DNA of 64,000 nucleotides from Dethiosulfovibrio peptidovorans DSM 11002 (GTDB lineage Bacteria > Synergistota > Synergistia > Synergistales > Dethiosulfovibrionaceae), in assembly GCF_000172975.1 (NCBI RefSeq), contig NZ_ABTR02000001.1:1278501-1342500 (forward strand), written 5' to 3'. Positions 8,967 through 18,976 of this stretch are shown piece after piece; positions within the stretch are counted from its first letter, which is position 1, and every line of letters begins with the position of its first letter. The notes under the pieces were generated by a model, which saw nothing but the letters and a program-made list of their open reading frames with translations, was not told where the DNA came from and did no database searches. Made by a program: the position numbers and the translations under genes.

Positions 8967-9716
8967 TCAGCTAAGTATGAGGCGTATCGCCGCGACGAAG
9001 GTCAGTGCCGTCACGACCATTATGAAGAGATTCTGCTTTATTCTTCCCACCAATTTCAGCCCCGACCAGACCCCTAGGGCGACGAAGGGCATGGCGATAA
9101 GATTAGCCTTCAGTGTGTCCGGGTTTATGATCCCGATGGACCAATAGAACGGGACTTTGAGGACGTTGGCCACCAGGAAGAACCAAACGCTTGCGGCTAT
9201 GAAACGTCGTTTAGGCAAGCCGGACATTATCATGTGGAGAGATATGATCGGTCCCGCTACGTTGGCCAGGGCAGTCGCGGTACCGGCGGCGAGCCCGAAA
9301 AGAAACCTTAGGGAGGGTCTCATCCCCTCGAAGGTGGATCCTTCCTTTTTCCGCCGTGACGACAGAATCCTCAGCCCAAGCATGGACAGAACCACCCAGC
9401 CTATGACGGATCGAAACAACTCCCCGTCTAGCCTCTCCATCAAAAGGCATCCCAGTCCGATCCCTACGACCGCCCCCGCCAGAAGGGTGAGGATCAGTCT
9501 TCTCTCCTTGGCGGCCTCGAACCTGTAGCTCGGGGCGGAGACGATGTCCGCTGCTATAAGAATGGGCAGAGACAGCCCGACCGACAATTTGGCCGGGAAG
9601 GCCGATGCCATGAGCGGGACCATGAGAATGGCCGTCCCGGGCAGAGCCGACTTGGAAAGCCCCGCTATCAGCCCCGACAGGGCGATCGCCAATATCTGAA
9701 AGCTATCTAAATGCAA
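8967..9716 (-). CDS. TauE/SafE-family membrane exporter
   Basis: This is a 249-residue polytopic protein with seven or eight hydrophobic segments. It has the family's N-terminal pattern GLIAGLSKSALPGTAILMVP, the first half of the inverted repeat typical of sulfite exporter TauE/SafE (DUF81) proteins, which move sulfite, sulfoacetate or other small organic anions. The start is taken as TTG 9716, eight bases after GGGAGG. The upstream in-frame GTG 9725 overlaps that ribosome-binding site and is unlikely. No neighbouring gene indicates the substrate. Confidence 0.85.
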   Translation of the reverse strand: MHLDSFQILAIALSGLIAGLSKSALPGTAILMVPLMASAFPAKLSVGLSLPILIAADIVSAPSYRFEAAKERRLILTLLAGAVVGIGLGCLLMERLDGELFRSVIGWVVLSMLGLRILSSRRKKEGSTFEGMRPSLRFLFGLAAGTATALANVAGPIISLHMIMSGLPKRRFIAASVWFFLVANVLKVPFYWSIGIINPDTLKANLIAMPFVALGVWSGLKLVGRIKQNLFIMVVTALTFVAAIRLILS

Positions 9717-9787
9717 AGGACGCACCTCCCGTTTAACGTCCTTAAAGTATAAAGCAGAAATGTTGTTAGGTGTGCCCCGGAGAGTTT

Positions 9788-10627
9788 TTAGTCCGTCACG
9801 TCCATGGTCCGTATTCTACAGGCGTCGGCGGGAGTCTGGGCCACGCAGCCCCCTCCGAACCACCGGATCCCCCGAGTTCTGAGGGTCTCGAGGTGATCTC
9901 CGTATCTTCCCGATCCCATCTCCGCGGTATGTCCCGATATGGCCCCTATCTCTTCCATGGACGACGAGAGCCGTCCGCACAGAAAACCGCTCCACGGTCC
10001 GTCCAATCGGTCCATCTCCCTCAACAGTCTGGTCAAAGCAGGGGAGACCAGCTTTTCGAACCGTTTCGGGCCTAGAAGGTCGGGGGTGGCGGAGGGCTCC
10101 GCCAGGGAGATTATCGAGATATCCCGTCTCGCCGCCTCCTTTGCACAGGAGAGAGAGTAGGCCGATATTCCTTTCAGAACGATCTCTATTCTGTCGGGAT
10201 CTTTTCTGGCGGTTCGAAACAAAACCTTGGGATCCAGCAGCCCCATCAGGGTGGAGAAGGGCCCGGATATCTTCAATATGACGGGAAGACCTTTTCCCCT
10301 CAGTATGGACACCGCCTTCATGACCTCACCCATCCTGCCGGAGTCAGGCGATGGAATCTCCTTCGGGATCATGTCGGGGTCGTCCCAGGGACACTTGGGT
10401 ATGAGAGGGGTGGTCCTGTGGTCCCCCATCCTTACCTGCGCCCCGAAGGCCTCGGCCTCCACGGTGGAACAGAAAGGCACGGAACAGTAGATGTCTCCTT
10501 CTAATCGCATCAATTCCTCCGCCACCTGGGCCATGAGCTCCCCGTCGCGGTGTACCTGGGGAAAGGGATAGCGGGAGCCTATCTCGTCCGGCATGGCTCC
10601 GTTCTTCGACACAGGGCAGCCCTTCAT
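9788..10627 (-). CDS. Shortened UroD/MtaA-family methyltransferase paralogue
   Basis: This is a 279-residue relative of the UroD/MtaA methyltransferases encoded at 12390 and 13411, last in the corrinoid operon. The family pattern VPFCSTVEAEAFGAQVRMGD is clear near the N-terminus, but the first ~25 residues of the family are absent. At the zinc site the usual HxC is FLC, so the His ligand is replaced by Phe, and the next ~75-residue stretch is about 30 residues shorter. The distal Cys (GGGC) is kept. The ATG start overlaps the upstream stop by four bases. It may be non-catalytic, for example a scaffold, or have a changed metal site. Long frames upstream of 10627 are shadows of the activator gene. 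Confidence 0.75.
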   Translation of the reverse strand: MKGCPVSKNGAMPDEIGSRYPFPQVHRDGELMAQVAEELMRLEGDIYCSVPFCSTVEAEAFGAQVRMGDHRTTPLIPKCPWDDPDMIPKEIPSPDSGRMGEVMKAVSILRGKGLPVILKISGPFSTLMGLLDPKVLFRTARKDPDRIEIVLKGISAYSLSCAKEAARRDISIISLAEPSATPDLLGPKRFEKLVSPALTRLLREMDRLDGPWSGFLCGRLSSSMEEIGAISGHTAEMGSGRYGDHLETLRTRGIRWFGGGCVAQTPADACRIRTMDVTD

Positions 10628-12393
10628 CTCGATACCTCGAACTGGAGACATCTGGAGAAGAGACGGTCGTAACTCTCCAGCACGGATAGCTCGACGTAGT
10701 CCACCATGTCGGAAATCCTCTCTGCGTCGTCTCTGGCTTTCCTGGAAAGCAGGCACATGGCGGCTCCAGCTCCGGAGGTGTTGCCGCAATAGGTTATTCG
10801 TTCCTTTAGTTCCATCGGTATGAGCCCCGACCCCGTCAGGCTGTCGATGCTCAGATGGCGTCCGAACTGTCCCGCTACCAGGACCTGATCTATGTCGGCC
10901 ATTGTCAGGTCGTTGGCCTCCAGAAGGGATATGAATCCGGAGAGTATGGCCCCTCTCGCCAGCTGAACCTGTCTAAGGTCGCCCTGGGTCACGGTGAGCC
11001 TCGGATCCCTCTCTCTCAGGACCAACGCCCTTTTCCCGTTTTCCTCTGTGATCATGGGCCCCGGTTTCAGTCTCCCCGTCTTGCCCACCATCTCAAGACG
11101 GACCACCTCGGATAACACGTCCAGTATGGCGCTGCCGCATAGCCCTCTGGGCATTCCTCCGCCTATGACTCCCAGTTCGGCGAAGGATTCGTTCAGGCGA
11201 ACCGACTCCACCGCTCCGTCCGATGCCCTCATGCCGCAGCTTATGTTCATCCCTTCCAGAGCGGGCCCGGCGGCGCAAGAACAGGCGCTGAGCCTGCCCC
11301 GGTCGGACAGGACGATCTCACCGTTCGTGCCTATGTCTATGAAGAGCCTGATGCCCCGGTCTTCCATCAGCTCGGTAGCCACCATTCCAGCCACTATATC
11401 GGAGCCAATGTAGGCTGAGACTCCGGGCAGGACGTAGGCCCTGGCTCCCGGAGCCAATTCTACCCCCAGGTCTACCGAGGGTACGGTCATCCCCCTTCGA
11501 AGAACAGGGCTGAAAGGAGCCCTGCCCAGTGACCAGGGATGGACCCCCAGCAGCAGAGAGGTCATGGTGGCGTTGCTGCCGATCGCCATCTCGTATATTC
11601 TTTTCCTGGAGGTCCCTTTATCGAAACAGACTTTGTCCACGAGGCGGTCCAGGCAGGAGATTATGGCGTCATGGAGGTCCTCCAGACCGGTAGGAAAGGT
11701 CTCGCATCTCTCTATTCGGGAGATCACGTCCAGGCCGAAGTCCTTCTGGGGGTTTATCTCGCTGGCGGATCCGACGGTATCCCCGGTCTTCAAGGATATC
11801 AACGACACGACCACCGTCGTGGTACCTACATCAACCGCCAGTCCGTAAAGCTCGGGGTCTCTCTTCGGTATCAGGTCTATCAGGCTGTCTTTGTGGAAGA
11901 CCGCGGTTACTTCCTTCGATCTGAACGCCTGGGGAATCCTCCTGACCAGAGATGCGTCCGGTTTAAGCGGCCCTGTTACCGATTCGAGATGGTCCAGAAG
12001 GGACATTCCGTCTCTTATCTCCGGTCTCGGTATCGATATAGGCACGGCGCCTATGGCGGGGCATATCTCGAAATCCGGGCGGTTCCCGTCCGTGAGGATG
12101 GCCGAACCCTTTTCCTCCTGATCGGACAGGGACACAGCGACGTCGCCGACCGGGCGGCACAGGCAGGACAGTCGAACTCCCTCTGCGATGTCCTCCGACG
12201 AGAGAAAGGTCCTCTCCTCGTCCGTCACGGGGCCTCCGTCTCCTTTCAGGGTGACCCGGCATTTTCCGCAGATTCCCTTGCCTCCGCAGGGAGCCTCTGT
12301 CTTGACTCCGCCTTCTCTCAGTATCTCCAACAGGGTAGGCCCCGGAGAGAACTCCAGGACCTTGTCTCCATCGATGGTAATCCTCGACGTCAT
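10624..12393 (-). CDS. RACo-type reductive activator of corrinoid protein (2Fe-2S + ASKHA, DUF4445)
   Basis: The 589-residue protein has an N-terminal plant-type 2Fe-2S ferredoxin domain, with cysteines 36, 42 and 45 in CGGKGICGKC and a fourth in LSCLC near residue 78. A linker and an ASKHA ATPase domain follow, with GLAVDVGTTTVVVSLISLKTG, FIDIGTNGEIVL and LVAGQFGRHL. Such proteins (RACo, RamA-like group) use ATP to drive reduction of inactive Co(II) corrinoid proteins back to Co(I). Its place between corrinoid methyltransferase genes with four-base overlaps on both sides fits this job. The cofactor target is presumably the corrinoid protein encoded at 14492. Confidence 0.92.
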   Translation of the reverse strand: MTSRITIDGDKVLEFSPGPTLLEILREGGVKTEAPCGGKGICGKCRVTLKGDGGPVTDEERTFLSSEDIAEGVRLSCLCRPVGDVAVSLSDQEEKGSAILTDGNRPDFEICPAIGAVPISIPRPEIRDGMSLLDHLESVTGPLKPDASLVRRIPQAFRSKEVTAVFHKDSLIDLIPKRDPELYGLAVDVGTTTVVVSLISLKTGDTVGSASEINPQKDFGLDVISRIERCETFPTGLEDLHDAIISCLDRLVDKVCFDKGTSRKRIYEMAIGSNATMTSLLLGVHPWSLGRAPFSPVLRRGMTVPSVDLGVELAPGARAYVLPGVSAYIGSDIVAGMVATELMEDRGIRLFIDIGTNGEIVLSDRGRLSACSCAAGPALEGMNISCGMRASDGAVESVRLNESFAELGVIGGGMPRGLCGSAILDVLSEVVRLEMVGKTGRLKPGPMITEENGKRALVLRERDPRLTVTQGDLRQVQLARGAILSGFISLLEANDLTMADIDQVLVAGQFGRHLSIDSLTGSGLIPMELKERITYCGNTSGAGAAMCLLSRKARDDAERISDMVDYVELSVLESYDRLFSRCLQFEVSR

Positions 12394-13421
12394 GAAGACT
12401 TCCTTTCCTTTGCGCTATCCACCAGAGTCCGTACCTGGCTAAGTGCCGTCCCCGCTCCAATGCCGCAGGCGGGGGCCAGAATATCGATTCCCTGGTCCAT
12501 GCACACCTTCGCCATCCGTTTCAGATGTTCTGGAGAGGCCGTCTCTATGGCAAGGGTGCTCACGTTTCCCATAAGGGATTTAGTGCTCAACCTGAGGGCC
12601 AACTCTTTGGCGGAGGTTATGGAATCGAAACTGATGCAGTCGCTCCTTATGTCGTCCAGAAGATGGGCCACTCCGCCGAGACGTCCGCATATATGTACTA
12701 TGGTGCCCTTTACGGAGGTGGAGAGTCGGTCCAGTATGCCGTTGAGAGCGGGGATTGCCCATCTTTCGAATGCCTTAGGTCCCAGGATCTCTCCCGTTCC
12801 GCTTGGGTCCGATATGGTGAGGACGTCCGCTCCCGCCTCGACCTGGGCTTTTCCGAATCGAACGAGCTGTTCCACCACGAAATCCATCAGAATCTGGACT
12901 TTCTCCGGGCTCTTTCTCATATCCTTATAGAAAAGCGAGGGATCCACGAGCGATGTGGCAAGGCTTATCGGACCGGTTAGGTTGGCTATTACCGGTATGT
13001 CGCCGTTTCTTTTTTTCAGGAGGGAAATCGCCCTACATACCTGGGCCGTACGTTCGGAGGATAGGTCCATCTCCTTTAAACTGTTCATGTCGCCGGAGTT
13101 CGACATGACGTATCCGATAACCCTCGGTTCGTGGATCCTGTCTCCCATCGATACAGGCGCCCCCATGGCTTCGGCCTCTACTGTCATGCAGAATGGAACC
13201 CCGTAGTTCTCGAACCCTCCGTTCTCCGGCTGTCCCGCCGCCAGCTCGGCCATGGCCTCTCCGTCGAGGTGTGCCTCGGGCCAGGTACTGTCGGTCAGGT
13301 CCATAACGTCCTCTACGATCATGTTCATCATTCCGCCGGGGCATATGCAGGGAGGGCGGTCTAACGACTCCCTCTTCAGGGCCCCGACCAGCCTTTTTAG
13401 CTCGGTCATATCAGTCGTCAT
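12390..13421 (-). CDS. UroD/MtaA-family corrinoid methyltransferase (2)
   Basis: This 343-residue methyltransferase belongs to the uroporphyrinogen-decarboxylase-like MtaA/MtbA group. It has the N-terminal RPPCICPGGMMN, the VPFCMTVEAEAMGAPVSMGD motif, the zinc-site HICGR and the distal Cys in APACGIG. These proteins move methyl groups between a corrinoid protein and a thiol or tetrahydrofolate, or from a methylated substrate to the corrinoid. The start ATG 13421 overlaps the upstream gene by 11 bases and has no strong ribosome-binding site, so translation is probably coupled. Another ATG lies at 13409. It is a candidate for the second (methyl-accepting) methyltransferase of the operon; the role division with the gene at 13411 is inference. 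Confidence 0.88.
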   Translation of the reverse strand: MTTDMTELKRLVGALKRESLDRPPCICPGGMMNMIVEDVMDLTDSTWPEAHLDGEAMAELAAGQPENGGFENYGVPFCMTVEAEAMGAPVSMGDRIHEPRVIGYVMSNSGDMNSLKEMDLSSERTAQVCRAISLLKKRNGDIPVIANLTGPISLATSLVDPSLFYKDMRKSPEKVQILMDFVVEQLVRFGKAQVEAGADVLTISDPSGTGEILGPKAFERWAIPALNGILDRLSTSVKGTIVHICGRLGGVAHLLDDIRSDCISFDSITSAKELALRLSTKSLMGNVSTLAIETASPEHLKRMAKVCMDQGIDILAPACGIGAGTALSQVRTLVDSAKERKSS

Positions 13422-14505
13422 ATCTGTCGATCGCCAGAGCCTTCTCCAGTTTTTCCTCGGTTATGGGCCACCCGAGCTCCCTGGTTGCATCCATCATGGC
13501 GTCTATGTTCCTTATCGGCGTCTCCACCGGAAGGCCGCATCCGGACATGAGGGCGAATCCCTTGGGCGATCGATAGGCGTCTCGGATGTCGGACAGGCAG
13601 GCCTTTCGAACCTCTTCCCTGGTTCCGGCGAACATAACCGACGAGGGGTCCACCTTGCCCATTATCTTCATCCTGTCGCCTACCTTGGATACGCAACCCG
13701 GTAGGGGGACCACGTTGTCGATGCTGAGGGCGTTTAGACCCATGTCGGCCAGATCCTCCCAGATCCCGTCGGTCTTGCCGCAGATGTGCATCGATGTGCC
13801 CATGCCCTTGTCCTTGATGTGGTTCAGCAGTTTTCCTACCACTGGAGCGGCGTAGCGTCTGAAGTGTTTGGGGCTGACGACGGTACAGGATGAGAGAGGC
13901 TCTGCTATGGATATCCCCATGCCTCTGGAGGCGGCGGCGTCTACGTAGCGCAGTGTGCTTTCCAGCGAGACCTGACATAGCCTATCCACCGACTGGGGAT
14001 CTCGCACCATCAGTCTCGTCATTTTCTCTACACCTATCAGAAAGAAGGCGGTGGTGAAGGGGCCGACCACCAAGGCGGTGCAGGGGACCTCGGAGCTTAT
14101 TTCGTCCACTACCATCTCCATCGCCTTCAGGTGGGTCGGAATTCTACAGGCCTTCTCCGGATCTATAGGCTCCAGCTCGTCGATCCTGGAGACGTCGTCT
14201 ATGGCAGGTTCCAATAGGTCCGCCGTGTCGTCGTCGGGAAACTTGATCTTGGCTCCCATAGCCTCGGCGACGGTGAAGAGGTCGGTGAACACCTTGGCTC
14301 CGTCGCCTCCGAATCTCCTGTGGGTGGCGATGACGGCGTCGGCCAGGGCTCTCGGGTCGTGGTTGAACTCGGATATCCTGCATCCCGATATGCGGGCGAT
14401 CCCGTTGGAGAGGTTGGGGTTACACTGTAACCGGTCCACCGGCTGTCCCGCTGACATGGCCCTGGCACGTTCCAGCGGGGTCATTAAATCCTTAAACTGC
14501 GACAT
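13411..14505 (-). CDS. UroD/MtaA-family corrinoid methyltransferase (1)
   Basis: This is a 364-residue methyltransferase of the UroD/MtaA superfamily directly after the corrinoid-protein gene. The zinc ligands appear as SMHICGK and MSGCGLP, both in canonical form. The N-terminus (LTPLERARAMSAGQPVDRL is similar to other members, here with MTPLERA) marks the group used as substrate-side methyltransferases in some O-demethylase systems. The start overlaps the upstream stop by 14 bases. No MttB-, MtaB- or MtrH-like protein is present in the operon, so this one may act on the methylated substrate itself. The substrate cannot be read from the sequence. Confidence 0.88.
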   Translation of the reverse strand: MSQFKDLMTPLERARAMSAGQPVDRLQCNPNLSNGIARISGCRISEFNHDPRALADAVIATHRRFGGDGAKVFTDLFTVAEAMGAKIKFPDDDTADLLEPAIDDVSRIDELEPIDPEKACRIPTHLKAMEMVVDEISSEVPCTALVVGPFTTAFFLIGVEKMTRLMVRDPQSVDRLCQVSLESTLRYVDAAASRGMGISIAEPLSSCTVVSPKHFRRYAAPVVGKLLNHIKDKGMGTSMHICGKTDGIWEDLADMGLNALSIDNVVPLPGCVSKVGDRMKIMGKVDPSSVMFAGTREEVRKACLSDIRDAYRSPKGFALMSGCGLPVETPIRNIDAMMDATRELGWPITEEKLEKALAIDRYDD

Positions 14506-15166
14506 GGGACATCGTCTCCAGTTTCGTCGTCACCAGTTTTCTGGCAAGTCTGGCTCCGGCGGATGCCTCCGGTTCGTAGCCGTCGGCACCTATCTTCTGG
14601 GCGAAGTTCCTGGAGATAGGGCCTCCTCCTACCATGACGATAGTCTTATCCCTTATGCCCTTCGCCTTGAGCAGGTCTACGACCACCGGCATGTTGGGCA
14701 TGGTGGTGGTCATCAAGGTGGACATCCCTACCAGATGGGCTCCCACCTCGATGGCCTTGTCGACGAACTCCTTGGGGGGGACGTCTCTTCCAAGATCGTA
14801 GACCTCGAATCCTACGGTCTCCAGCATCACCTTGAAAAGATTCTTCCCTATGTCGTGGGTGTCCCCCTCGACCACCCCTACCACCGCCTTGTAGGTCTCG
14901 GACGAATCGTCCCTGCGAAGGTGGGGCTTAAGCACGTCCAGACCGGCGTACATGGCGTCGGAGCACAACAACAACTCCGGTATGTAGTACTCCTCCTCTT
15001 CGTACAGTCTTCCCGCCTCGTCCATACCTACGGAAAGTCCCGAGGAGATGCCGTCGTAAGCGTCAAATCCCGCTTCGACGTAATTTTTGGATAGCTTCGC
15101 CGATGTCTCCTCGTCCATATCGACTACCGATCTGGCCAGTTCTTTAAGCATATTTTCTTTCTCCAT
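14492..15166 (-). CDS. Corrinoid (B12)-binding methyl-carrier protein
   Basis: This 224-residue protein has the two-domain layout of MtaC/MtbC/MtvC: an N-terminal helical cap of about 90 residues and a C-terminal Rossmann-like B12-binding domain. The signature D-x-H-x-x-G is at residues 102-107 (GDTHDIGKNL), with His104 as the lower cobalt ligand, and MVGGGPIS lies further along. It is the first gene of the operon, preceded by GGGGGAGGAACTACAAG. It should carry the methyl group between the methyltransferases encoded downstream and be reactivated by the RACo-type protein. Confidence 0.93.
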   Translation of the reverse strand: MEKENMLKELARSVVDMDEETSAKLSKNYVEAGFDAYDGISSGLSVGMDEAGRLYEEEEYYIPELLLCSDAMYAGLDVLKPHLRRDDSSETYKAVVGVVEGDTHDIGKNLFKVMLETVGFEVYDLGRDVPPKEFVDKAIEVGAHLVGMSTLMTTTMPNMPVVVDLLKAKGIRDKTIVMVGGGPISRNFAQKIGADGYEPEASAGARLARKLVTTKLETMSHVAV

Positions 15167-15190
15167 CTTGTAGTTCCTCCCCCTTGTAAC

Positions 15191-15217
15191 TATTAGGCAT
15201 AAAAATTATGCCTAATA
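15191..15217 (-). promoter_or_regulatory. Palindromic operator in front of the corrinoid operon
   Basis: A perfect 12-base inverted repeat, TATTAGGCATAA and TTATGCCTAATA, is separated by AAA. It starts just downstream of the -10 element, so it covers the transcription start, a typical repressor site. It is followed on the minus strand by a G-rich ribosome-binding region rather than a T-run, which argues against a terminator. Confidence 0.65.
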
Positions 15218-15219
15218 TC

Positions 15220-15248
15220 AGTATACACGTGGAGGATTTACGCGACAA
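15220..15248 (-). promoter_or_regulatory. Promoter of the corrinoid methyltransferase operon
   Basis: On the minus strand, TTGTCG (15248-15243), a 17-base spacer and TATACT (15225-15220). The operon therefore has its own promoter, separate from the ABC-transporter genes upstream. Confidence 0.7.
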
Positions 15249-15264
15249 GATCGAAACATTTATG

Positions 15265-16089
15265 CTATAGAGTCTTCAATATATTGTTCGCAAGAGTTCC
15301 CGTGGGGACAAGTTTATATTTCAGAAATAAACCGATCGATTTCAGTATTTCATCTACCAGCTCTGCCGGATCGAGGCCTACGGAGGCGGTCAGAGATCCC
15401 GCCTCTATGGCGGAAAGGGCTTCCGGTATGAGGTCGACCCCTCCTATTGGGATTTCGACGCCCTTTTCGGCGGCGGTCTCTATAGCCCCTAAGGCCATAA
15501 GGTCGTTGGCGCAGAAAATGGCCTCGGGTTTTAGGGGGATCAGCTTTTCCATCGCCTTTCTGCCGCCCTCCTTGGTGAAGTCGCTCCATTCCACGTCGAG
15601 GACCGCTAGGCCTCTTCGTTTTGCCGTCTTAACGGCTCCCTCTGTTCTCATCCTGCCCTGCCTGGTGTCGATGGGGCCGCCGATGCAGCCCAAAGGACCG
15701 TCGCAGTTTTCCAGTAGAACCTCCGTGCACATTCGGCCCTGTTCCTCGAAGTCGGCCGCCTGTAACGGTATATAACCGGATATGCCGGCTACCATCTCTT
15801 GGTCGCACTTGGGGCCTACGTCGAAGATGGGAAATTTTCTGGACGATGACTCAAGCGAGGGCAGGAGGTTTTCCGCCGTCAGGGGGTTTATTATCATGCA
15901 GTCGTAGTCCGCCGACAGGTATCTGCCCATGAGTTCGGCCTGGCATAGGCCGTCTCTCGGATCTTCGGGAAAGAGAAAGTCTCCATAAAAACCATGTACC
16001 GGGAGGGATTCCCGGTACATGCGTATGGTCTCCAACCAGAACGGGTTGTCTTGATCACAGAAAAGAATAGCTATTTTGCGGAGATCCAT
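15265..16089 (-). CDS. Stand-alone periplasmic-binding-protein-like (LacI/RbsB) domain without signal peptide
   Basis: This 274-residue protein has the fold pattern of ribose-type binding proteins: RKIAILFCDQDNPFWLETIR at the start, PEAIFCANDLMALGAIETA in the second lobe and a final hinge strand. It has neither a signal peptide nor a helix-turn-helix. The ATG lies four bases after the stop of the secreted binding-protein gene at 16093, so the two are co-transcribed. It may be a cytoplasmic ligand sensor or a transport accessory. Both this and the neighbouring protein keep the CANDxMALGAI-type pattern, which points to duplication with loss of export. The function is unknown. Confidence 0.8.
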   Translation of the reverse strand: MDLRKIAILFCDQDNPFWLETIRMYRESLPVHGFYGDFLFPEDPRDGLCQAELMGRYLSADYDCMIINPLTAENLLPSLESSSRKFPIFDVGPKCDQEMVAGISGYIPLQAADFEEQGRMCTEVLLENCDGPLGCIGGPIDTRQGRMRTEGAVKTAKRRGLAVLDVEWSDFTKEGGRKAMEKLIPLKPEAIFCANDLMALGAIETAAEKGVEIPIGGVDLIPEALSAIEAGSLTASVGLDPAELVDEILKSIGLFLKYKLVPTGTLANNILKTL

Positions 16090-16092
16090 CGA

Positions 16093-17109
16093 TCATTTCC
16101 ACCCCTGGAATTGCCCGATATTCTCTCCGTTCACCAGGGTTATCGGAACGGACAGTTTTTCCGGAAGGTCTTCGTCCTTTTTTATCAGCTTCAGAGTGTA
16201 GACGAGAGTTCCTCTGGTCCAGGCGGCCTGGGAGAAGGTGGTCGATCCGGCCAACCTGCCGCTTTTTATGGCCTCTGCCGCCTCAGGAATGAAGTCCGTT
16301 CCGTATACCGTCACTCCCTCTATTCCTGCAACCTCGAGGGCGTCTACCGCGGCAAGAGCCATCACGTCGTTGGCGCAATATATTCCCTTGAGTTGGGGAT
16401 GGGCTTTTACGAGGTTGGTCGTTATGTCGTAGGCCCTGTTTCTGTCCCAGTTGCCGGCTTCCACAGCGACCAGTTTGAGTCCGGCTTTTTCGAAGCCCTC
16501 GGACGCTCCCTCTCTCCGAGCTTTGCTCTGTCCGGCTCCGGGAATTCCCTCTATTATGGCGACCTCCGATCCGGAGGGCAGCTTTTCGGCCATGTCCTCG
16601 GCGCAGAGTCGCCCTTGGTCCTTGAACGTGGCGGTTATCCATCCGTCCATTACGGCACCGGCCTGCTTTAAACCGTCTCTGCTTACCTCGGGGCCGGAAC
16701 ATACGACTGGGATGCCTTTTTCGTCGGCCTTGACTATGCCCGGTATAAGATTGAACGGGTCCATCGGGGTAACTATGATTCCGTCGTATTTCTTGGCCAC
16801 CATGGCCTCCAGGGTGTTGAGCTGGGACTTGAGGTCCTTTTCGGTTGGGGCCGCCATAACCTCCACCGATATCCCCATCTCCTTTGCCCACTCGCCGTAG
16901 CGTTCTTTCATGGTCACCCAATAAGGGTTGGACAGGGTTATCACCAGAACCCCTATGCGCTCCTGGCCGGTTATGTCGGGCAACGACCCCATCTGATCCT
17001 CGATGGTCGCTATCGACTTGGAGACCATCGGGTTCGGCTCGCCTGCGAAAGAGGTCGCCGCCATGGCGCAACACAGCGCCGCCGCACATAAGAACTTCGC
17101 TACCTTCAT
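16093..17109 (-). CDS. Ribose-type ABC transporter substrate-binding protein
   Basis: The protein of about 338 residues has a signal peptide (about residues 1-23, hydrophobic core ending ATSFAG) followed by a periplasmic-binding fold of the RbsB group. IGVLVITLSNPYWVTMKERY opens the first lobe and GIYCANDVMALAAVDALEVA is in the second. The start is ATG 17109, ten bases after GGAGGG; TTG 17115 is possible but only four bases from it. The gene lies in an operon with a permease and an ATPase upstream. RbsB-type proteins bind sugars, polyols, autoinducer-2 and other small molecules; the ligand here is unknown and might be linked to the corrinoid operon downstream. Confidence 0.88.
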   Translation of the reverse strand: MKVAKFLCAAALCCAMAATSFAGEPNPMVSKSIATIEDQMGSLPDITGQERIGVLVITLSNPYWVTMKERYGEWAKEMGISVEVMAAPTEKDLKSQLNTLEAMVAKKYDGIIVTPMDPFNLIPGIVKADEKGIPVVCSGPEVSRDGLKQAGAVMDGWITATFKDQGRLCAEDMAEKLPSGSEVAIIEGIPGAGQSKARREGASEGFEKAGLKLVAVEAGNWDRNRAYDITTNLVKAHPQLKGIYCANDVMALAAVDALEVAGIEGVTVYGTDFIPEAAEAIKSGRLAGSTTFSQAAWTRGTLVYTLKLIKKDEDLPEKLSVPITLVNGENIGQFQGWK

Positions 17110-17130
17110 TTTCAAATCACCCTCCGCTAT

Positions 17131-18057
17131 CTATTGTTTCGTCCTCGTCGATCGCTCCGAAAGAACTACCGATATGAGGACGATGGCACCTACGGAAAAT
17201 CCCTGATAGTAGGACGAGACTCCGAGCATCGTGAGGCCGTTCTTTACCAGCGCCAGCAGAATCCCCGCCAGAACGGTCCCTGTCAGGCTGGTTTTACCGC
17301 CCTGTATGGCTGTTCCTCCGAGCACCGCCGTGGCTATGGCGTCCATCTCCATCATCGCCCCCGCCAGAGGTTCCGCGCTGTTGAGACGCGAGGTAATAAG
17401 TACGGCAGCCATGGCGGCGCAGCATCCGCAAAGGCAGTATAGGCCGGTCTTCCAGCGCTTTACCCTGATTCCGCATCGTCTGAGGGCCTCCTCGTTGTTT
17501 CCCAGCCCGAGGGTGTATATCCCGAATCGAGTGAACGAGAAGAAGAACCACAGAGCCAGAAATAGCAGGGCACAGACTATAACCGATACCGGAAGGCCCA
17601 TAATCCGGCCTCTGCCTATAAACGTGAAAGACGGCGGGAAGCCGTAAACCGGCGTTCCCTGCGTGATTATAAGTGCCAGACCGGACATCAGAGACATAGA
17701 GGTCAAGGTCGCTATGAAGGGATTGATCCTCAGAAAAACGACGATACCAGCGTTCCATAGGCCCGCGATCGTCCCCGCCGCCAGGGCGGCCAGGCATGCC
17801 GTGGACGTCGGTAGCCCCGCTTTCAGCGCGGGGGCTATTATCACGCCTATAAGCGCCACGGCGGAACCTACCGAGAGGTCTATCCCTCCTGAGGCGATCA
17901 AAAGGGACATCCCCAGGCCTACGACTATGTTGAGAGTGCTTTGATCCAGCACGTTCCTTATGTTGTCCCAGTTCATGAAATAAGGCGACGATAGGGCGAA
18001 AATCAAACAGGAGATCGATATGACTCCCGCCAACCGCAGCGGTCTAGCGCTTTTCAC
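17131..18057 (-). CDS. Ribose-type (RbsC) ABC transporter permease
   Basis: This is a 308-residue permease with about eight to ten membrane segments and the RbsC/XylH patterns VVGLGMSLLIASGGIDLSVGS and AVLGGTAIQGGKTSLTGTVL. Only one permease gene is present, so it should act as a homodimer. Its ATG overlaps the stop of the ATPase gene by four bases, and the binding-protein gene follows after about 20 bases. Confidence 0.9.
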   Translation of the reverse strand: MKSARPLRLAGVISISCLIFALSSPYFMNWDNIRNVLDQSTLNIVVGLGMSLLIASGGIDLSVGSAVALIGVIIAPALKAGLPTSTACLAALAAGTIAGLWNAGIVVFLRINPFIATLTSMSLMSGLALIITQGTPVYGFPPSFTFIGRGRIMGLPVSVIVCALLFLALWFFFSFTRFGIYTLGLGNNEEALRRCGIRVKRWKTGLYCLCGCCAAMAAVLITSRLNSAEPLAGAMMEMDAIATAVLGGTAIQGGKTSLTGTVLAGILLALVKNGLTMLGVSSYYQGFSVGAIVLISVVLSERSTRTKQ

Positions 18058-18791
18058 GATATGGCTCCGGATATCCGTCCCGCAAGGGATAGGGGATCGA
18101 GTTCGTCAGCGGGAATACAGGCTACGGTTCTTCCGTTGCGCATTATAACCACTTCGTCGGCGGTCTCCAGAACCTGTTCCATATCGTGGCTTATGTAGAG
18201 TATCGCCTGTCCGTCCTCCCGTAACTTTTTAACGGTATCGACGATGTGGGATCTTTCCACTATCCCCATGGCAGATGTCGGCTCGTCCAGTATCAATATA
18301 TCTCCTTCCTGGGCGATCGCTCGGGCCAGGGCTACCGCCTGTCTCTGGCCTCCGGAGAGATCGGAGACGGGAGTAGCGACGGACGGAAGGTCTATGGCGA
18401 ATCGTTTAAGCAGCTCGATCGAACGATGCCTCATAGCCTCTCGATCGACGATACCCCATCTCGAGGGTTCCATACCGAGCCATATGTTCGACGCTACGTC
18501 CAACACGTCCACAAGGGCCAAATCTTGATAGACTGTGGCTACCCCCCTACGACGAGCTTCGGCCAAGGTGAGAGACGGGGTCGCTTTGCCCCTAATGGAT
18601 ATATAGCCGTAATCCGGCCGCAGCGCTCCGGTTATGCATTTGATCAGAGTGGTCTTTCCCGCTCCGTTGTTTCCCACCAACGCAGTTATCTTTCCCCTCT
18701 CGAGGGTCAGATCTCCCTCTACGAGGGCGTCTACGGGGCCGAAACTTTTCTTTAAAGAACGGACGGTCAGGACGATGTCGTTATATCGCAT
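18054..18791 (-). CDS. Single-domain sugar-type ABC transporter ATP-binding protein
   Basis: This 245-residue ATPase has Walker A GNNGAGKTT (residues 40-48), signature LSGGQRQAVALARAI, Walker B ILILDEPTSAMG and the switch histidine in LYISHDM. Ribose-type importers usually have a double-length ATPase (RbsA); here there is a single domain of the FrcA kind. It is the first gene of the importer operon, with ATG after AAAGGAGG. Confidence 0.9.
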   Translation of the reverse strand: MRYNDIVLTVRSLKKSFGPVDALVEGDLTLERGKITALVGNNGAGKTTLIKCITGALRPDYGYISIRGKATPSLTLAEARRRGVATVYQDLALVDVLDVASNIWLGMEPSRWGIVDREAMRHRSIELLKRFAIDLPSVATPVSDLSGGQRQAVALARAIAQEGDILILDEPTSAMGIVERSHIVDTVKKLREDGQAILYISHDMEQVLETADEVVIMRNGRTVACIPADELDPLSLAGRISGAIS

Positions 18792-18814
18792 CTCGGCCTC
18801 CTTTGGAGATAAAA

Positions 18815-18836
18815 ATTATAACATATGAGAATATGT
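18815..18836 (-). promoter_or_regulatory. Extended -10 promoter with operator-like repeat for the ABC importer operon
   Basis: On the minus strand TATAAT (18820-18815) is preceded by TGT, an extended -10. Immediately upstream lies the inverted repeat ACATAT-GAGA-ATATGT (18821-18836), placed where a repressor would block the polymerase. It differs in sequence from the palindrome of the corrinoid operon. Confidence 0.5.
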
Positions 18837-18924
18837 CTATCGACAAAACAGCAAGATTCTACAAGAAAATCCTTTACGACGGTGGTAATTTAGACGAGAA
18901 AGGCTGTTAGCAACATGACCTAAA

Positions 18925-18954
18925 GGGGCCGAGGCGGAATTCCGCCTCGGCCCC
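18925..18954. terminator. Perfect 30-base palindrome between the SDR gene and the ABC operon
   Basis: GGGGCCGAGGCGGAA is followed directly by its reverse complement, giving 15-base arms. It lies 22 bases past the stop of the SDR gene (minus strand). The trailing T-run is only three bases in that direction, so it is a weak terminator candidate or another palindromic site. Confidence 0.5.
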
Positions 18955-18976
18955 TTACATGAGAACTTGCCCTTTG

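Follow-up and report, generated by a model that had tools for sequence, protein, structure and literature searches.

A corrinoid methyltransferase operon of Dethiosulfovibrio peptidovorans as a candidate type 1 mlp cluster for methylated sulfur or selenium compounds

In a 64,000-nucleotide stretch of the Dethiosulfovibrio peptidovorans genome, hereafter the window, genes for a corrinoid protein, two full-length methyltransferases of the UroD/MtaA type, a RACo-type activator and a shorter UroD paralogue form a tight five-gene operon on the minus strand, next to an ABC importer of the CUT2 family (Table 1). D. peptidovorans is an anaerobe that lives on peptides. We scanned the genome of strain SEBR 4207T (2,576,359 bases in three contigs; PMC3035263 is its published record) and compared related loci elsewhere; G, L and C numbers below denote genomes, loci and contigs, G000 being D. 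peptidovorans itself. The nine genes named by a first-pass annotation of the window were all recovered in place as intact open reading frames, and their Pfam families agreed. The operon is overlapping, as described there, with overlaps of 14, 11, 4 and 28 bases rather than the 4 to 14 first given, because we set the start of the short UroD gene at the ATG at 10651, which agrees with the start in a congener, and not at the TTG at 10789. That annotation had overlooked a TauE/SafE-type permease gene, which lies 62 bp 3' of the short UroD gene on the same strand.

Table 1. Genes and candidate regulatory sites of the operon and adjoining importer (window positions).
Feature	Position	Strand	Evidence	Remark
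Corrinoid (B12-binding) methyl carrier protein, 224 aa	14492..15166	-	PF02310 and PF02607 over cut-off	
UroDA, UroD-superfamily methyltransferase	13411..14505	-	PF01208, 262 bits	Candidate Mlp2, donor-side enzyme
MtaA-like methyltransferase	12390..13421	-	PRK06252, 392 bits (cut-off 244)	Candidate Mlp3, acceptor-side enzyme
RACo-type reductive activator of corrinoid protein	10624..12393	-	2Fe-2S and ASKHA domains; PF14574, PF17651, PF00111	
Short UroD paralogue, 287 aa	9788..10651	-	PF01208	Candidate Mlp1
TauE/SafE-type permease	8967..9725	-	PF01925	Possible sixth operon gene
Cytoplasmic (signal-less) periplasmic-binding-protein homologue	15265..16089	-	PF13407	
CUT2 substrate-binding protein, D-allose-binding-protein-like	16093..17115	-	PF13407 (Peripla_BP_4)	
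CUT2 permease	17131..18057	-	PF02653 (BPD_transp_2)	
Single-domain CUT2 ATPase, 245 aa	18054..18791	-	PF00005; only the RbsA/YtfR-type N-terminal half	Half the size of RbsA
Promoter-like site, corrinoid operon	15220..15248	-	Consensus scan: TTGTCG, 17 nt, TATACT	
Palindrome or hairpin	15192..15216	-	ATTAGGCATA-ATTTT-TATGCCTAAT	Just past the -10 site; conserved
Promoter-like site, importer	18815..18843	-	Consensus scan: TCGATA, 17 nt, TATAAT, extended -10	Sequence kept in G110

Both full-length UroD proteins carry an H-x-C...C motif whose residues (H240, C242 and C323 in UroDA; H243, C245 and C319 in the MtaA-like enzyme) are invariant in all aligned relatives and align with the zinc ligands of Methanosarcina MtaA. 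Global identity to M. mazei MtaA (PDB 4ay7) is 32.5% for the MtaA-like enzyme, 25.0% for UroDA and 24.5% for the short paralogue (BLAST local identities of 32.4%, 24.6% and 26.4%, respectively). The same structure was the top PDB match of the AlphaFold model of UroDA, with a template modelling (TM) score of 0.83 by query length, and UroDA showed the strongest constraint among nine genes tested (ratio of nonsynonymous to synonymous substitution rates, dN/dS, of 0.039). Across the superfamily, His-Cys-Cys sites mark enzymes that act on sulfur or selenium, whereas O-demethylases have a carboxylate in place of a Cys or no ligand; the Mlp2 protein of C. ljungdahlii acts in vitro as a methylcobalamin:selenide methyltransferase (PMC10418091).

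Kountz and Balskus (PMC10418091) describe type 1 mlp clusters as holding several MtaA-like proteins with His-Cys-Cys sites, a corrinoid protein and a RACE activator but no folate methylase; they propose a role in methyl-sulfur or methyl-selenium metabolism, including methionine recycling, and also list a double-cubane reductase and its activator. The operon shows each defining feature of these clusters that could be checked. The corrinoid protein and the RACE activator are encoded co-directionally with gaps of less than 2 kb; both full UroD proteins have the His-Cys-Cys ligands; at least two UroD proteins reach or come close to 25% identity with a characterised coenzyme M methyltransferase, the values of 25.0% and 24.5% being borderline; and, where a folate methylase should be more than 20 kb away, the genome's sole Pterin_bind protein lies about 247 kb from the operon. 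The TauE/SafE permease belongs to a transporter family for sulfur compounds, which we count in favour of a role in sulfur chemistry; it occupies the matching place in G108 and G110 and is not there in G111 and G113. We favour, as reasonably probable, the reading that the five genes form a corrinoid sulfur/selenium methyltransferase system of the type 1 mlp kind and that the adjoining CUT2 importer is a separate transcription unit.

The gene content of the whole genome narrows the possible partners of this system. No MtrH- or MetH-type folate methyltransferase was found genome-wide, the one Pterin_bind protein being FolP-like and encoded beside a folate-biosynthesis gene; the acceptor is therefore not folate via any known enzyme. 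Three B12-binding proteins are encoded: that of the operon, the only one of methyltransferase type (it scored 183 bits against the pyl_corrinoid profile, under the cut-off of 215); one in an ornithine-degradation cluster; and a third, elsewhere, whose length and gene neighbours suggest a mutase subunit. The earlier statement that no MttB-, MtaB- or MtrH-like protein is present thus holds genome-wide for MtrH; MttB and MtaB were not scanned for by hidden Markov model (HMM), yet only one of the three B12-binding proteins is of methyltransferase type, and no MtaB-like gene appeared among the neighbours by Pfam or NCBIfam (no MtaB HMM was run). These findings support the earlier view of a corrinoid methyltransfer system whose substrate enzyme has to be sought among the UroD paralogues. 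MetE (PF01717), MetH/BHMT (PF02574) and a MetH-type pterin domain were likewise not found in the genome; SelA, SelB and YedF are present. Since no methionine synthase is recognisable, homocysteine becomes a candidate acceptor, and we infer that the operon itself is a candidate methionine synthase.

We propose the following direction of transfer, substrates and division of labour. UroDA would use its His-Cys-Cys zinc to bind a thiol or selenol in methylated form, for instance methylselenol, dimethylselenide or a methyl thioether, and would methylate the Co(I) of the corrinoid protein; from there the MtaA-like enzyme would hand the methyl group to a thiol such as sulfide, homocysteine or a similar compound; and RACo would re-reduce corrinoid that oxidation has left as Co(II). 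The short UroD protein probably handles a further substrate or has a regulatory role. It had been called shortened, and it is indeed the shorter paralogue, but it is no degenerate copy: its family recurs within the operon of relatives, its dN/dS of 0.19 indicates purifying selection, and it is predicted to fold as a barrel (predicted local distance difference test score 86; best PDB match MtaA 4ay7, TM score 0.65 by query length). The His of its zinc motif has been replaced by Phe in the clade of the window (FLCG in the window, G108 and G110; HLCG in G111 and G113); Mlp1 proteins of type 1 clusters may be without the His-Cys-Cys ligands (PMC10418091).

A scan of named genomes yielded 60 loci. 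Taking these and the Synergistota loci together, 42 besides the window encode UroDA, the corrinoid protein, the MtaA-like enzyme and RACo, and are termed complete. In a quick tree, for which the only support values are from the Shimodaira-Hasegawa-like approximate likelihood ratio test (SH-aLRT), each of the three UroD paralogues makes up a lineage of its own (support 98, 93 and 99), and the three recur in one another's company. An exchange of the operon between phyla is suggested by the grouping of the window's UroDA and MtaA-like enzyme with Clostridia (support 100 and 95). In the clostridial loci most closely related (UroDA matching at 58-69%), the cluster includes a double-cubane reductase (NF040772 over cut-off) together with its activator; such a reductase lies within 5 kb in 6/42 loci. 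SsuABC-type importer parts were found within the same distance in 23 of the 43 complete loci, window included. Comparison of these importers with the Sao transporter families of NCBIfam gave scores far under cut-off, and that assignment was rejected. A DUF1847-like protein and an SsuABC-type importer recur with the operon in Chlorobiaceae, Anaerovibrio, Fibrimonas and others (L078-L105).

The CUT2 importer has the expected parts (a Peripla_BP_4 protein with a signal, a BPD_transp_2 permease and an RbsA-type ATPase in half-size form) and was described as lying directly upstream of the operon. It is adjacent and in the same direction, but the 98 bp between them hold a conserved promoter-like site and a palindrome. 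The consensus scan of the region overall gave no excess of sites over shuffled sequence; the TATACT and TTG elements are nonetheless retained in congeners despite differing upstream DNA, and TATACT and the palindrome are kept both in genomes with the importer linked (window, G108 and G110) and in those with it unlinked (G111, G113 and G112). The arms of the palindrome covary, all 57 cells being paired, with one pair differing in both bases between clades and two kept by G-U pairing; coming from six related sequences, this is modest evidence. The palindrome may serve as an operator or form a hairpin in RNA. No Rfam riboswitch match was found in the window. Two further observations concern the upstream regions: in G110 an AraC-type regulator gene (L042 2112-2921) diverges from the importer and is missing at the matching place in the window (18792-18976), and in congeners with a stand-alone operon (L045 6647-7555, L115) the corrinoid gene is immediately preceded by one for an exported S-adenosylmethionine-hydrolase-like protein.

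A genome survey had been proposed with the first-pass annotation, which named rare adjacency as half of what would speak against an importer that supplies the methyl compound. Taking adjacency as a position within 5 kb of a complete locus, we found a CUT2 importer near the operon in 2/42 loci, or 3/43 with the window, all in Dethiosulfovibrio (window, G108 and G110). Elsewhere the two units are apart or single: relatives of the CUT2 binding protein matching at 62-82% occur in eleven other genomes, nearly all without an adjoining corrinoid operon; G113 has the importer behind leucine-type genes, as in the window, but its operon is 2.2 Mb off; G111 has the operon without the importer; and G115-G118 have the importer without the operon. 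With the operon also keeping its own promoter region in congeners where it stands alone, the proposal is not supported in that form. A weaker form survives in the SsuABC-type importers that recur beside the operon family.

The closest PDB relatives of the CUT2 binding protein are allose-binding proteins, whose aspartate and lysine positions it lacks. Directly after its gene comes that of a signal-less homologue, in the window and in G108, G110, G112, G113, G115-G118, G026, G036, G043 and G142; the homologue follows the binding protein in all examined genomes that have a close relative of it (at least ten; L158, L160-L167). The two proteins have pocket residues N63, P64, W66, G141, P142, R200, N249 and D274 in common, and the homologue is under purifying selection (dN/dS 0.22). 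The simplest guess is that it receives or carries the imported ligand in the cytosol. A terminator-like hairpin of 12 pairs with a T-rich tail (15993-16021, coding strand) lies within the 5' end of its gene.

D. peptidovorans encodes a double-cubane reductase and activator away from the operon (C1:1361799-1363717), with a second CUT2 importer directly 3' of the pair (L173 7799-12559; G000:C1:1361799-1366558). The same order, pair then CUT2 importer, was seen in about ten to a dozen other Synergistota loci (L207-L246); in further loci of the phylum the pair adjoins SsuABC-type importers or YedF, and in G142 an importer of the window's type stands directly behind it. Within Synergistota, the reductase is present in 16/21 operon carriers versus 65/167 other genomes (Fisher p = 0.002, uncorrected for kinship). 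These arrangements keep open a looser functional tie of CUT2 importers to the chemistry of the operon.

How far, then, can the importer be linked to a substrate? The link is weak, and in its O-methyl form it is disfavoured. By analogy with acetogen O-demethylases, the importer would supply a methoxylated or O-methyl sugar or polyol from which a UroD enzyme strips the O-methyl group. The importer does lie directly upstream in the same direction, an arrangement conserved in G108 and G110, and UroD-type O-demethylases exist (OdmB and VdmB; PMC10418091). However, neither mark of the acetogen systems is present: both full UroD proteins have a His-Cys-Cys rather than an O-type metal site (by the rule of PMC10418091), and the genome lacks the MtrH-type folate methyltransferase (methyltransferase II) that would serve as acceptor enzyme. 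The O-demethylase analogy was rejected on these two grounds; the rarity of CUT2 adjacency, the operon's own promoter region and the report that the species uses neither sugars nor fatty acids (PMC3035263) also weigh against an O-methyl substrate, which we hold to be very unlikely. A different form of cooperation, on a methylated organic compound of sulfur or selenium with a sugar-like body (for instance methylthioribose or a methylseleno-sugar), would fit the recurrence of CUT2-type importers beside the double-cubane pair, the co-occurrence of reductase and operon in the phylum and the altered pocket of the binding protein. Most genomes that bear the importer nevertheless have it without the operon, the second CUT2 importer belongs to a different subfamily, and the sugar-like ligand is a guess; no bacterial selenosugar importer was found in the literature. 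We regard this form as doubtful.

The methyl acceptor admits an alternative of its own, in which the operon provides folate-independent synthesis or salvage of methionine, methyl groups from methylated sulfur compounds being passed to homocysteine by the MtaA-like enzyme. The lack of a recognisable methionine synthase favours it, as do the methionine recycling proposed for such clusters (PMC10418091) and the fold that MetE shares with UroD enzymes. An organism living on peptides may, however, obtain methionine externally, and the nitrogenase-like MarHDK-type proteins of a proposed methionine-salvage variant are missing from the genome, so that this variant was rejected; we think the alternative unlikely. 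Joining both ideas, with CUT2 importers, double-cubane reductase and operon as one network scavenging sugar-like methylated sulfur or selenium compounds and the MtaA-like enzyme as a folate-independent methionine synthase, gives a picture that we rate as highly improbable.

The type 1 mlp reading has its own difficulties. SelB shows no enrichment in Synergistota that carry the operon (15/21 versus 114/167 others, p = 1), and a selenium link through its co-occurrence was rejected. The labels Mlp1, Mlp2 and Mlp3 are candidate assignments made from properties and tree position. Across the wider family, the strongest association with an ABC-type importer is with those of the SsuABC kind. Lastly, no terminator was seen in the 98-bp gap, and read-through from the importer promoter is therefore possible.

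Part of the operon region occurs twice in the assembly. A 7.4-kb second contig (L038, G000:C2, 2495-7415) matches window 9523-14443 over 4,921 bases at 100% identity and then runs into unrelated DNA; the copy could be a duplication of recent origin, a rearrangement variant or an artefact of the assembly.

Judged by its genes and motifs, the operon joins a known, little-studied group and probably acts on methylated sulfur or selenium compounds, a correction to the O-demethylation that automatic annotation would invite. D. peptidovorans, available as a culturable type strain, enters the small set of organisms in which type 1 mlp function can be tested. It is also usefully simple: it encodes a single corrinoid protein of methyltransferase type, and neither a folate methyltransferase nor a known methionine synthase was found. 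The cluster family now comprises 43 complete loci, and the SsuABC-type importers that recur in it offer a lead to the natural substrate.

Among known systems, type 1 mlp clusters are the closest: they too combine several MtaA-like UroD proteins, one corrinoid protein and one RACE/RACo activator in co-directional order, with His-Cys-Cys sites and selenium genes in the genome. D. peptidovorans differs in having its double-cubane pair elsewhere, a CUT2 importer upstream, a TauE/SafE permease downstream and a short UroD protein that has lost its zinc His. The SdmABC dimethylselenide system of Methanococcus (Niess and Klein 2004, as described in PMC11097638 and PMC10418091) likewise pairs a corrinoid protein with UroD-type methyltransferases and offers a candidate chemistry, but it is archaeal and responds there to selenium starvation. 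Acetogen O-demethylases (OdmB/VdmB) share the UroD-type donor enzyme, the corrinoid protein and the RACE-type activator, and differ in their folate methyltransferase and metal site. The coenzyme M methyltransferases MtaA and MtbA of Methanosarcina have the zinc residues and fold of the MtaA-like enzyme, although D. peptidovorans performs no methanogenesis. The importer, finally, draws its binding protein, permease and ATPase from the families of the sugar importers AlsBAC and RbsBAC; unlike them, it has a single-domain ATPase, altered pocket positions and a cytoplasmic binding-protein homologue after it.

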